From the NCBI GenBank assembly GCA_017994695.1, contig JAGOKF010000016.1, forward strand, positions 1-60,173: DNA of 60,173 nucleotides, given 5' to 3'. The position numbers and the translations under genes were made by a program. The DNA is from Myxococcota bacterium. Lineage in GTDB: Bacteria > Myxococcota_A > UBA9042 > DTJE01. This document shows positions 53,835 through 58,971 of this stretch, piece after piece. How positions within the stretch are numbered: the first letter of the stretch is position 1; every line of letters starts with the position of its first letter. Under the pieces are notes generated by a model. It worked only from the letters and a program-made list of their open reading frames with translations. It was not told the DNA's origin and searched no databases.

Positions 53835-56057
53835 TCAGAGCAGGTAGTAGGGATCCACGTCCAGGGTCACCCGCAGCGCCCCGCGCCCGTCCCCGAAGAC
53901 GTCCTGGACGTGCCGAATCAGTTCATGGAGCACCTTGCGCCGGTGGGACTTCACCAGGACCTGGCTCCGGGTCCGCCCCCGGAGGCGCTCGATGGCCGCC
54001 GCCGCCGGTCCCAGCACCGTCACCCGCCGGCCCTCGGGACCCACGCCCATCAGGAACTGGTCCATCATCTCCCGGATTTCGTCGGCCGTGCGCTGCACCT
54101 CCACGCCGTCGGGCCCCGACACCTCGATGGCGGCCAGGTGGGAATGGGGAGGGTATCCCCGTTCCCGCCGGATCCGGTTCTCCGTCACCGCGAAGCCCAG
54201 GTAGTCGTGGGCCGAGGCGAACCGCAGGGCATAGTGGGTCGGGTCGAAGGTCTGGACCAGGACCTGTCCGGGCCGGTCCCCCCGCCCGGCCCGCCCGGCC
54301 ACCTGGGTCAGCAGCTGGAAGGTCCGCTCGGGGGCCCGGAAGTCCGGGAACGCCAGGGACTGTTCCGCCAGCAGCACCCCCACCAGCGTCACCTGGGGGA
54401 AGTCGTGTCCCTTCACGACGATCTGCGTCCCGACCAGCACGTTCAGGACCCCCTCCCGGAAGTCCGCCAGCACCTTGCCCAGCGCGCCGACGCTGCTCAC
54501 CTCGCTGTCCAGGCGACCGCACCGGGCCTTCGGGAAGAGCCGCTGGACCTCCTCCTCCACCCGTTCCGTCCCGAACCCGACCACTTCCACTTCCGGGCTC
54601 TGGCAGCCGGGACAGCGGTCGGGCAACTCCACATGGTGATCGCAGTAATGGCACTGGAGCCTCTCGGGCTTCCGGTGGTGCGTCATCGTGATGCTGCAGT
54701 TGGGGCACTGGAGGCTCCGGCCGCAGGACCGGCAGACCAGGAACCGCCCGAAGCCGCGACGGTTCAGGAACAGGATCGCCGACTCGTCCCGGTCCAGCGT
54801 CGCCTGCAGTGCGGCCCGGAGAGGTTCCGAAAAGAGGCGCTCCCCCCCCAGGGTCTTCTCGTACCGCAGGTCCACCAGCGAGACGTGGGGCAGGGGCCGC
54901 TCCATCACCCGCCGGGGCATCGACAGGAAGGTCAGTTTTCCCGCGTGGGCGTTCTGGAAACTCTCCAGGGAGGGAGTCGCCGATCCCAGCACCACCGGGC
55001 AGCCCGCCAGGGACCCCCGGACCAGCGCCAGGTCCCGGGCATGGTAGCGGAGGCCTTCCTGCTGCTTGTAGGTGACCTCGTGCTCCTCGTCCACGATGAT
55101 CAGCCCCAGGCGGGGCATCGGAGCGAACACCGCCGATCGCGCTCCCACGACCACCCGGACCCGGCCCGCCAGCACCTGGTCCCAGGCCCGCAGCCGCCTC
55201 CCCTGGGCCATGGCGCTGTGGAGCACCTCGGCGAGGTCCCCGAACCGCTCCTTGAACTGCCGCTGGAGTTCCACCGTCAGGGCGATCTCGGGCACCAGCA
55301 CCACCGCCCCCCGACCCAGGGCCACGCACTCCTCGATGGCCCGCAGGTACACCTCGGTCTTCCCCGAGCCCGTCACCCCGTGGAGCAGGAAGCCCTGGTA
55401 GCGCTGTGTTCGGATCGCCGCCAGGATCCGGTCGATGGCCTCGGCCTGGTGCTCGGTCGGGACCAGCCTCGAACCGGTCGGCGGCGCGACCCCCGCGAAG
55501 GCGGGAACCTCCGGGACCTCGGACCGTTCGGCCATCCGCAGGCAGCCGGAAGCCAGGAGGCGCTTCACCGACACGGCCCCCTGGGGCACGGATCGGCGGA
55601 CCTCCTGGAGGTCCATCTCCCCGGCCGCCTCCAGCAGGTCCAGCACCGCCCGGTCCCGGAGGCTCCGAGGCGGCACCTCCGGGCGACGGACGAAGACCAC
55701 CACCGGGTCGGTCTTCGGAGGGTGACGGGAGAAGAGACCGGGCATCGCCGTCCGGGCCACCACCCCCACCGGGACCAGGTAGTAGGTCGCGGCCCATTCC
55801 ACGAGGTCCAGCAGGTCCTCGGGCCAGGGCGGCCGGGAAGAGATCACCTCCCCGACGGGCTGCAGGGTGGTCACGTCCCGATCGTTCCTGGGGCGGACCC
55901 GGATCACCAGCCCCGGGACCTGCCGGCCCCGGACCGGGCACCGGACCTGCCTTCCCCGCCGGACGCGGTCTTCCAGGCCCTCGGGGACCAGGTAGGTGTA
56001 GGTCCGGGCCAGCGGCAGCAGCAGCAGCACGTCCGCGACCGTCTGGTCCGCCGCCAT
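53835..56057 (-). CDS. priA: Primosomal protein N' (replication restart helicase PriA)
   Basis: The 740-residue protein has an N-terminal 3'-DNA-binding domain, Walker A GVTGSGKT (227-234), DEEH at 323-326, helicase motifs IVFLPEIAL-type (LVPEIALTVELQ), and eight zinc-binding Cys (CRSCGRSLQCPNC and CHYCDH..CPGC). C-terminal helicase motifs follow (QIVVKGHDFPQVTLVGV, GRAGRG). PriA reloads the replisome at stalled forks. ATG 56057 lies five bases after the stop of the Sm-like gene. The ribosome site is weak (GAGGT well upstream). Confidence 0.96.
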   Translation of the reverse strand: MAADQTVADVLLLLPLARTYTYLVPEGLEDRVRRGRQVRCPVRGRQVPGLVIRVRPRNDRDVTTLQPVGEVISSRPPWPEDLLDLVEWAATYYLVPVGVVARTAMPGLFSRHPPKTDPVVVFVRRPEVPPRSLRDRAVLDLLEAAGEMDLQEVRRSVPQGAVSVKRLLASGCLRMAERSEVPEVPAFAGVAPPTGSRLVPTEHQAEAIDRILAAIRTQRYQGFLLHGVTGSGKTEVYLRAIEECVALGRGAVVLVPEIALTVELQRQFKERFGDLAEVLHSAMAQGRRLRAWDQVLAGRVRVVVGARSAVFAPMPRLGLIIVDEEHEVTYKQQEGLRYHARDLALVRGSLAGCPVVLGSATPSLESFQNAHAGKLTFLSMPRRVMERPLPHVSLVDLRYEKTLGGERLFSEPLRAALQATLDRDESAILFLNRRGFGRFLVCRSCGRSLQCPNCSITMTHHRKPERLQCHYCDHHVELPDRCPGCQSPEVEVVGFGTERVEEEVQRLFPKARCGRLDSEVSSVGALGKVLADFREGVLNVLVGTQIVVKGHDFPQVTLVGVLLAEQSLAFPDFRAPERTFQLLTQVAGRAGRGDRPGQVLVQTFDPTHYALRFASAHDYLGFAVTENRIRRERGYPPHSHLAAIEVSGPDGVEVQRTADEIREMMDQFLMGVGPEGRRVTVLGPAAAAIERLRGRTRSQVLVKSHRRKVLHELIRHVQDVFGDGRGALRVTLDVDPYYLL

Positions 56058-56062
56058 GGAAC

Positions 56063-56881
56063 TCAACCGACCTCGTAGGGTGGATCCCGGCGCAGGGCGT
56101 GGGTCATCAGGACCAGGCGGACCCCCTGGACCTCCAGTTCGATCTCGAAGAGGGCCGCCCGGCGCACCAGACCCCGGACGGTCTGCCCGTTGCGCAGCCG
56201 GAACCGGACCGGACCACGGAGGCGGGCCCACTCCAGCGCCTGGGTCACCGTGGGTCGCCAGCGATCGGCCAGGGACCGGGAGGGTCCCAGGTCCTCGAGT
56301 CCGTCCCCCGGGAGGAAGAACGACCTGGCGGTCGGCAGGTCGGCCGCCAGGCAGTACCCCAGCACCTGGTCCTTCGGGATCCGGTCGGCCCCCTCGGGTC
56401 CCTCCACCACCAGGGCGTACCGCTCGACGTCCAGCAGCCGGACCTCGAAGGGCTCCCGGCCGTGGCAGAACAGCCCCACCGCCGTTCCCGGGGGCCACTC
56501 CTTCCACTGCTGCCGCTTGAAGCCCGCCTGCTGGAAATCCCAGAGTTCCTGGCACTGGCGCGCCCGGTCGGGCGGCAGGCGCCCCCGGACCACCTGGCCG
56601 GCCAGGTCGATCCGGATCCCCTGGTCCACCATCCGGCGGACCCGCTGCCGGAGGAACATCTCCTCGAGGACCTGGTTCAGCGTCACCTGGCCCCGGACCA
56701 CCCGGAGGGCATCCTTCGCCGAGATACCCGAACGCTGGGCCAGCGCGGCCACCTTCTCCCGCTCGGCCGCCGTCGGGCCCGGCGGGGCGCCGCGGCCGCG
56801 GGCCGGCCGGCCGCCGGGTTTCCCCCTTCGTCCCGGTCCCCCGGCCGGGCGGGAATGTCCACCGGACTGCTGGCGATCCAT
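56063..56881 (-). CDS. Unknown protein with tandem Sm/Hfq-like beta-barrel regions
   Basis: The 272-residue protein has a basic, Gly/Pro/Arg-rich N-terminus (1-35), then a helical part (40-115; VAALAQRSGISAKDALRVV). Two regions resemble Sm folds: about 125-180 (AVGLFCHGREPFEVRLLDV, then ALVVEGP) and about 215-270 (LEWARLRGPVRFRLRNGQ, VRGLVRRAALFEIEL, LVLMTHALRRD). The second closely follows the Hfq pattern of NG turn, xG, F-x-I-x-L and H-A-L/I. RNA binding is inferred. ATG 56881 follows GGAGGA. It is the first gene of the Sm-like/priA/aroB run. Confidence 0.75.
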   Translation of the reverse strand: MDRQQSGGHSRPAGGPGRRGKPGGRPARGRGAPPGPTAAEREKVAALAQRSGISAKDALRVVRGQVTLNQVLEEMFLRQRVRRMVDQGIRIDLAGQVVRGRLPPDRARQCQELWDFQQAGFKRQQWKEWPPGTAVGLFCHGREPFEVRLLDVERYALVVEGPEGADRIPKDQVLGYCLAADLPTARSFFLPGDGLEDLGPSRSLADRWRPTVTQALEWARLRGPVRFRLRNGQTVRGLVRRAALFEIELEVQGVRLVLMTHALRRDPPYEVG

Positions 56882-56997: not shown

Positions 56998-57663
56998 ATG
57001 GCGAGCCGATGGCCCGGGTCCTGTCCCGCGATCTGCGCCTCCGTGCACCTGGACCAGTTGCCCGGGGCCCTGGCCCGGATCCCCGCCGACTGCCTGCTGG
57101 AGGTCCGCCTGGACCGGGTCTCCCCCGCGGACACCGGGTGGATCGAGGCGATCCGCCGCCTGCCCCGAGTCATCGCCACCTGCCGTCCCGGTCTCCTGAG
57201 CCAGTCGGAGTGCGACGACGTGATCCGGGCAGCCATCGCGACGGGGATCTTCGCGGTGGACCTGGACGTCGGCTGTCCGGCCCGGTCCTGGGAGGCGATC
57301 GGGGCGGAGGCCCGGAAGTGCGGAACGCGGGTGATCGCGTCGTCCCACGACTGGGAGGGCACCCCGCCGTTCGACGAACTGGTGGCGCGGGTTCACCGGT
57401 GCCGGGCCACCGGGGCGGACCTGGCGAAGATCGCCTGCATGGCCCGGGTCCCGGAGGACGGGCACCGGGTGCTGCGGCTCTACGGCCGGGTTCCGGGTCC
57501 CCTGGTGGCGTTCTGCATGGGGGAGGCCGGACGCTTCACCCGGGTGGAGGCGGTCCGGCGGGGGGCGCCCTTCCTCTACGCATCGGCCGGGCCGGGACTG
57601 GAGACGGCTCCCGGCCAGCCGACCGTGGAGGAGGCGATCCGGGAACTCCAGGGATCGGGATAG
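56998..57663 (+). CDS. aroD: 3-dehydroquinate dehydratase, type I
   Basis: The 221-residue protein has the type I catalytic pair: His117 in VIASSHDWEGTPP and the Schiff-base Lys144 in DLAKIACMA. It also has LLEVRLDRV near the start and ASAGPGLETAPGQP at the substrate loop. It converts 3-dehydroquinate to 3-dehydroshikimate. ATG 56998 follows GGGGGAAG. TATCAT at 56942-56947 is a possible -10 box without a clear -35. aroEK follows after six bases. Confidence 0.94.
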   Translation: MASRWPGSCPAICASVHLDQLPGALARIPADCLLEVRLDRVSPADTGWIEAIRRLPRVIATCRPGLLSQSECDDVIRAAIATGIFAVDLDVGCPARSWEAIGAEARKCGTRVIASSHDWEGTPPFDELVARVHRCRATGADLAKIACMARVPEDGHRVLRLYGRVPGPLVAFCMGEAGRFTRVEAVRRGAPFLYASAGPGLETAPGQPTVEEAIRELQGSG

Positions 57664-57669
57664 GCGGGC

Positions 57670-58971
57670 ATGGAACGAACGGTCGCCATCTACGGGGTCG
57701 CCGGGTTGCCCGTCGTCCACTCCCGAAGCCCCGCCCTGTTCCGACAGTGGTTCGGGCCCCGGTCCGACCGGGCCTACCTGGCCATCCAGGTCCGGGACCG
57801 GGCATCGCTGCAGCGCATCCGGGACCAGGCTCCCCTGGCCGGCTTCAACGTGACCCGTCCCTGGAAGGAGGCGGTGGCGAAGGGGGACCTTGCCCTCGAG
57901 GCCGAGGCCCGGGCTACCGGGGCGGTCAACGTCGTCTTCCGGGACCGGGACGGCTGCTGGAGGGGCGACAACACCGACGTCGCGGGCGTCCGGGAGGTGC
58001 TCCGGTCCTGCGTGCCGGGCTGGCAGGGCCGGAAGGTGCTGCTGCTGGGAGCCGGCGGCGCCGCCCGGGCGGTGGCCCGGGTGGTCCGGGCCGGGAGTTG
58101 CCCCCTCGTCGTCCTGAACCGGACCCGGGACCGGGCCCGACGACTGGCCCGGGACGCCGGGGGCGAGGGGGACGGCCTGGACCGTCTCGGGCGCTGGCTT
58201 CCCGGGGCGGACCTCGTCGTCTCGACGCTGCCCCCATCGGCCGCCCCCGACCTGTCCCTCGAGGGCATCCGCCCGGGCACCCCCTGGATCGACGCCGGGT
58301 ACCTGCCTTCGCCCCTGGAGCAGGAGGCCGCGGCGAGGCAGGTACGATGGATCCGGGGAACGACATGGCTGCTGGCCCAGGCCCGGGCCACCCACCGCCT
58401 CTGGTTCGGGACCCTCCCCTCCCGGAGGGAAGGGATCCGGGTGCTGGAACAGTCCCCCGCGGCCCTCCGGCGGATCGCCCTGGTGGGGTTCATGGGATCG
58501 GGCAAGACGGCCCTGGGGGAGCGCCTGGCCCGGACGCTCGGCTGGGATTTCGCCGATCTGGACCGGGAGGTCGAGGCCCGGCTGGGCCGGTCCATTCCCG
58601 AAATCTTCCGGGAGTCGGGCGAGGCGGCCTTCCGGCAATCCGAGGTCCGCGCCCTCCGGGAACTCGGGGGCCGGGACCGGATCGTGCTGGCCTGCGGAGG
58701 GGGCACCACGACGGTCCCCGAGGCCCGGACCCTGCTCCGGAGGCACTTCTACGGCATCTGGGCCTGGGTCTCTTCGGGGGAGGCCGCCCGCCGCGTGAAG
58801 GAGGGACGGGGGAGGCCCCTCTGGGTCGCCGATCCCTCGGGCCTCGAGGCCCTGTGGAGAATCCGGCAGGAAGGCTATGCTCGCACCGCGGACCTGCTGG
58901 TGGACACGGAGGCCGAGGAGGCGGCGACCCTGGCCGAGGAGATTGCCCATGAGATCCGTCTGGCCCTCTGA
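57670..58971 (+). CDS. Bifunctional shikimate dehydrogenase / shikimate kinase (AroE-AroK fusion)
   Basis: This 433-residue fusion has an AroE part (1-250) with HSRSP, NVTRPWKE (Lys66), RGDNTD (Asp103) and GAGGAARAV for NADP. The kinase part (about 267-433) has the P-loop GFMGSGKT (273-280), DLD (Asp296 and Asp298), FRESGEAAFRQSE, ACGGGT and GRPLW in the lid. The linker (about 250-266) is short. The protein would take 3-dehydroshikimate to shikimate 3-phosphate in one polypeptide. Its last 23 bases overlap the aroA start. Confidence 0.94.
   Translation: MERTVAIYGVAGLPVVHSRSPALFRQWFGPRSDRAYLAIQVRDRASLQRIRDQAPLAGFNVTRPWKEAVAKGDLALEAEARATGAVNVVFRDRDGCWRGDNTDVAGVREVLRSCVPGWQGRKVLLLGAGGAARAVARVVRAGSCPLVVLNRTRDRARRLARDAGGEGDGLDRLGRWLPGADLVVSTLPPSAAPDLSLEGIRPGTPWIDAGYLPSPLEQEAAARQVRWIRGTTWLLAQARATHRLWFGTLPSRREGIRVLEQSPAALRRIALVGFMGSGKTALGERLARTLGWDFADLDREVEARLGRSIPEIFRESGEAAFRQSEVRALRELGGRDRIVLACGGGTTTVPEARTLLRRHFYGIWAWVSSGEAARRVKEGRGRPLWVADPSGLEALWRIRQEGYARTADLLVDTEAEEAATLAEEIAHEIRLAL

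Follow-up and report, generated by a model that had tools for sequence, protein, structure and literature searches.

The closest described relatives of the protein considered here belong to the Hfq family. Hfq itself (Pfam PF17209, NCBIfam TIGR02383; e.g. the structures 1kq1 from S. aureus, 4noy from Listeria and 6gwk from Caulobacter) carries one barrel with an N-terminal helix in a chain of about 65–100 amino acids, and an aromatic residue, a lysine and a histidine form a uridine pocket between its neighbouring subunits. It assembles as a homohexameric ring that binds small RNAs and mRNAs and helps them to pair. Hfq-related proteins of cyanobacteria are covered by the models PF21979 (Hfq_1) and NF047718, each of which describes one barrel of ~60 residues. 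MJ1435, the Hfq-like protein of Methanocaldococcus jannaschii (2qtx, 5dy9), is a single domain of 71 amino acids. The model NF010691 (PRK14091), which we take to represent the two-domain Hfq of Novosphingobium-type alphaproteobacteria, accommodates two Hfq units per chain. A literature search on tandem or duplicated Hfq returned nothing on point among the papers covered. M. xanthus and the myxobacteria are reported to have no hfq homologue and yet use the small RNA (sRNA) Pxr, and other proteins may serve them as a chaperone (PMC5684412).

Here we describe a gene from a Myxococcota bacterium, located in a stretch of 60,173 nucleotides that was analysed as a whole and that we refer to as ‘the window’. 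Its product is a genuine, highly diverged Hfq, with two Hfq-type Sm domains in one chain. From the N-terminus, the parts of the protein are a tail, a helical repeat in two copies and the Hfq domain in two copies; their coordinates, and those of the neighbouring priA gene, are collected in Table 1.

Table 1. The tandem-Hfq gene, the parts of its product and the adjoining priA gene (positions in the window)
Feature	Residues	Position	Strand	Basis
Tandem-Hfq gene		56063..56881	-	Intact ORF, ATG to TGA, 272 aa + stop; homologues in 25/90 related genomes
Basic G/R/P-rich disordered tail	1-36	56774..56881	-	pLDDT about 47-54 in first 30 residues (AlphaFold2)
Helical repeat 1, GIPxxxAxxVxxGxxTLNxVL	38-76	56654..56770	-	Predicted helices, pLDDT about 97
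Helical repeat 2, GLDxxLAGQVAxGxLxLxRA	78-118	56528..56650	-	Predicted helices, pLDDT about 97
Hfq/Sm domain 1	122-182	56336..56518	-	Profile match to S. aureus Hfq 1kq1, E 8.4e-5; five predicted strands, 134-178; structural fit; column counts
Linker between barrels	183-205	56267..56335	-	Without barrel strand pattern in model
Hfq/Sm domain 2	206-271	56069..56266	-	Profile matches to M. jannaschii Hfq, E 3.2e-5, and L. monocytogenes Hfq, E 1.5e-4; structural fit; column counts
priA		53835..56057	-	Pfam PriA_3primeBD, PriA_C, DEAD and Zn-ribbon matches

The copy of the protein found in the same genus is 71% identical to it, with dN 0.20 against dS 0.47; the reading frame is therefore a real gene maintained by purifying selection, rather than an ORF that arose by chance in DNA rich in GC. 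The first-pass annotation had listed the product as an unknown protein, and to the standard libraries it is one: on its own it matches no Pfam or NCBIfam model, even at E 10. In this it differs from Hfq, its sequence having diverged too far to score, alone, against any model. Family profiles do find the relationship. When a profile built from 19 members was run against 177,635 PDB sequences, Hfq or Hfq-like chains were the best 24 of the 32 matches, with domain 2 closest to M. jannaschii Hfq and domain 1 closest to S. aureus Hfq. Profiles of the single domains, searched against the PDB sequences, both find Hfq at the E-values given in Table 1; column-shuffled versions of the two domain alignments find nothing better than E 1.1. 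A resemblance to the Hfq pattern at about residues 215–270 (V-x-F-x-L-x-NG, G-x-V, F-x-I-x-L and THAL), and a diverged copy of it at 125–180, had been proposed from the letters of the sequence, and both proposals are borne out: the intact domain 2 profile retrieves Hfq and its shuffled counterpart does not, and the domain 1 profile retrieves Hfq and also matches domain 2 (hhalign, 95.6–96.0%).

Some relatives are less diverged. Domain 1 of one (L039) passes Pfam Hfq with 34.4 bits against a cut-off of 27 (E 1.6e-8), and domain 2 of another (L038) passes the cyanobacterial-type model Hfq_1 with 32.1 bits, also against 27. NCBIfam Hfq models (TIGR02383, NF047718) detect these two proteins as well, with scores below the cut-offs of the models. 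The equivalog cut-off of TIGR02383 is 61.7 bits; the best relative reaches 32.1 and the window protein has no match, so that by NCBI's rule the family is a homologue of Hfq rather than an equivalog. Similarly, NF010691, whose cut-off is 270 bits, gives the tandem family no more than 20.4. Within the 176 positions of that model, however, 34–76 are matched by domain 2 of one relative and 92–162 by domain 1 of another. NF010691 thus behaves as a two-unit model, and tandem Hfq as such is already known; what NF010691 lacks is room for a helical repeat domain. The single-barrel models PF21979 and NF047718 differ from the window protein in having neither the tandem nor the N-terminal domain, and Hfq proper differs in its single barrel, where the present protein has two, plus the helical repeat domain, in about 270 amino acids. 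Taken together, these comparisons leave next to no room for doubt that the protein is homologous to Hfq and that its two Hfq units lie in tandem.

The predicted structure agrees with the sequence. AlphaFold2, run on the family alignment, gave a model with mean pLDDT 90.7 and pTM 0.77, in which about the first 30 residues are poorly ordered. Two small barrels are present, with strands at 134–178 and 224–259, and the second is preceded by a helix (212–221), as in Hfq. When the domains were compared with known structures by VIA-align, the best 41 rows were all Hfq. Domain 2 (211–272) superimposes on Caulobacter Hfq with the best Z, 6.7, and an rmsd of about 1.0 Å over 58–59 residues (59/62), helix included; domain 1 superimposes on MJ1435, which is also the closest sequence match of domain 2, with Z 6.0 and an rmsd of 1.7–1.9 Å over 57/57 residues. 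Z values of 6–7 are modest in absolute terms, and are what a barrel of ~60 residues can be expected to give. The model therefore contains two small Sm-type barrels with Hfq as their best structural match, and together with the profile matches of both domains it upholds the earlier suggestion of two Sm/Hfq-like folds in one protein.

The residues of the Hfq proximal pocket were located by reading S. aureus Hfq numbering off the profile alignments and counting columns over 25 members. Position 42 of Hfq corresponds to Y155 in domain 1 and F245 in domain 2, and is aromatic in all 25 members at both places. The equivalent of Lys57 is K170, in domain 1, and that of His58 is H261, in domain 2; both are kept in 25/25. 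So too are the conserved glycines (G29 and G34 in Hfq), which fall at G232 and G237 in domain 2. The reciprocal positions are looser. The histidine that follows K170 in domain 1 is kept in 16/25 members, and is an aspartate in the window's genus (K-D-Q instead of K-H-D); the lysine position of domain 2 is occupied by Arg, Thr or Phe across the family, and by Thr in the window's genus. The invariant lysine and the invariant histidine consequently sit on different barrels, and in the window's genus the K-H pair is incomplete in both barrels. The pocket signature (aromatic 42 plus the Lys and His of Y-K-H-A) is complete for the chain but not for each barrel, and these residues may form a uridine pocket in the tandem family as they do in Hfq.

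Ahead of the barrels lie the tail and the helical repeats. Basic tails are common to nearly all relatives that have a tail in the alignment. The first-pass annotation had described the N-terminus as basic and disordered, which is correct for residues 1–36; the residues beyond form an ordered domain of five predicted helices (38–117, pLDDT near 97). The two helical repeats match each other (hhalign 96.4%, 27% identity), and the two-copy domain, 56528–56770 on the reverse strand, is conserved throughout the family. A sequence search of the PDB with the helical domain alone brings up nothing but a designed helical toroid, with no stretch passing on its own, and a fold search gives no clear match (best Z 4.3).

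Homologues were found in 19 of 90 related genomes with a single sequence as query, and in 25 with profiles (22 of 80, plus G080, G083 and G087); the aligned members keep the same order of parts. The occurrence is patchy, 65 of the 90 genomes lacking the family. In one genome (G011) a 35-residue fragment of the end of domain 2 (L040, on contig C98) lies at a contig end and is nearly identical to that genome's complete copy; it is probably an assembly duplicate at the contig edge. Among named contigs, a search with the single protein found nothing, and a profile from a tighter subset of members found eight, from MAGs labelled Myxococcales, Anaeromyxobacter or Deltaproteobacteria. Plasmid and phage records yielded no relatives of the protein.

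The absence of a standard hfq from the window, pointed out earlier, extends to the genome as assembled (96.7% complete), in which Pfam Hfq and Hfq_1 detect no free-standing Hfq gene. Nor does Pfam Hfq detect one in 80 relatives: over the 81 genomes it gives just two matches, both of them members of the tandem-Hfq family. Since 65 of the 90 genomes are without the family, and the search for ordinary Hfq came up empty there too, such a chaperone would appear to be dispensable in the phylum. The window's genome has two separate RNase E/G genes (L094 and L095, on contigs C108 and C145), both scoring far over the Pfam cut-off.

The surroundings of the gene vary with lineage. In the window, five bases separate its stop codon from the start of priA, and the two genes are probably co-transcribed. 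The gene lies directly ahead of priA in the window's own family (f1) and in a sister family (f2), so that its earlier description as a neighbour of priA holds for these two but not for other lineages, where the neighbours differ. In another group it is flanked by a GBBH-like gene on one side and rsmD/coaD on the other, and a lon-like gene is close by; a third group has cell-wall genes and ftsY on either side of it, and in other lineages it adjoins an RdgC-like gene and one encoding a metallo-beta-lactamase fold. Neighbours without a Pfam match were named by eye. No single partner recurs throughout, and none of the neighbours provides a link to sRNAs.

Several of these neighbours deserve mention in their own right. 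In more distant lineages the adjoining gene (L068:5791-6405, with counterparts in L065, L067, L069 and L071) encodes 205 amino acids with a partial RdgC match (PF04381, E 9.8e-9), and the metallo-beta-lactamase-fold gene often comes after it. Two further neighbours, L067:8315-9424 and L071:6688-7593, resemble by eye the N-terminal helical domain of IF2; Pfam gives only a weak DUF2325 match, in one of them. In the window, an apparent fusion of AroE (shikimate dehydrogenase) and AroK (shikimate kinase), assigned by eye, occupies 57670–58971 on the forward strand, downstream of an aroD-like ORF (56998–57663).

What might such a protein do? RNA binding by the family is likely, and a role as an sRNA chaperone is plausible given the kept pocket, the homology to Hfq and the finding of no free-standing Hfq. 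We propose that the tandem-Hfq protein most likely acts as the RNA chaperone in these bacteria. About three chains would join their barrels edge to edge, giving a ring of six barrels, an assembly that we infer. At its proximal pore the ring would retain a pocket of Hfq type, made up of aromatic, Lys and His, to take up the U-rich ends of RNAs; domain 1 would supply the lysine and domain 2 the histidine. The basic tail would add affinity for RNA, so that sRNAs and mRNAs could anneal or be shielded from RNase E. To this proposal, ring and pocket included, we assign a probability of about 0.68. Counting against it are the incomplete K-H pairs in the window's genus, the lack of the family in most related genomes, the lineage-dependent neighbours with no link to sRNAs, and the modest Z values. 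A more specific version is tentative: here the protein would be a global sRNA chaperone, unlike barrels would alternate around the three-chain ring so that each pocket receives its Lys and its His from different barrel types, and the helical repeat domain would offer a second face for binding RNA or an RNase.

Other explanations can be weighed against this proposal. The likeness might be that of small beta-barrels in general (Tudor, KOW, S1, SH3-like) and not homology to Hfq at all, as the Foldseek comparison of the whole model could suggest, since tandem Tudor and related barrels rank first in it (E about 0.006–0.02). No Foldseek match falls below 0.001, and these E-values alone are not significant, so the evidence from fold rests on its combination with sequence. 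The two-barrel Tudor-like matches were set aside as generic: their alignments have an rmsd above 10 Å over the two barrels, against 1.0–1.9 Å for Hfq. Profile matches specific to Hfq, lost on shuffling, largely refute a generic likeness, and we consider it scarcely credible. A second possibility is that the barrels are Sm-like but bind DNA or protein, for instance in replication restart with PriA. The closeness of priA, and the recurrence of this order in both f1 and f2, would fit such a role, as would reports that E. coli Hfq binds DNA (a complex with dsDNA, 5uk7, is among the structural matches). The placing of the gene elsewhere beside rsmD/coaD, ftsY or RdgC-like genes makes the priA link a local one and argues against a replication-specific role; we have down-weighted the adjacency for this reason, and regard the explanation as very improbable.

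More serious, if still unlikely, is the view that the protein, though truly a tandem Hfq by ancestry, no longer matches sRNAs with their targets. It would instead serve other RNA housekeeping, connected with the ribosome, translation or transcription, with the helical domain as its main interacting part. Patchy occurrence (25/90 genomes) and housekeeping neighbours that change with lineage (priA, rsmD/coaD, ftsY, the RdgC-like gene) are compatible with this, as are weak profile matches of domain 2 to NusA (E 0.02–0.05) and the splitting of the canonical K-H pair across the domains. Against it, the pocket residues typical of the RNA site of Hfq rank with the best-conserved positions in the family, and basic tails are widespread among its members.

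With the tandem arrangement already represented by NF010691, what is new here is a diverged family with a helical domain, its occurrence in bacteria believed to be without Hfq, and the division of Lys and His between barrels. Standard annotation misses the family, since the majority of its members stay below the cut-off of every Hfq model. Myxobacteria use sRNAs such as Pxr (PMC5684412), and the family offers a concrete candidate for the sRNA chaperone. It would also be a natural experiment on Hfq, in which two barrels are free to diverge within one chain, much as eukaryotic Sm rings passed from a homomeric to a heteromeric make-up.
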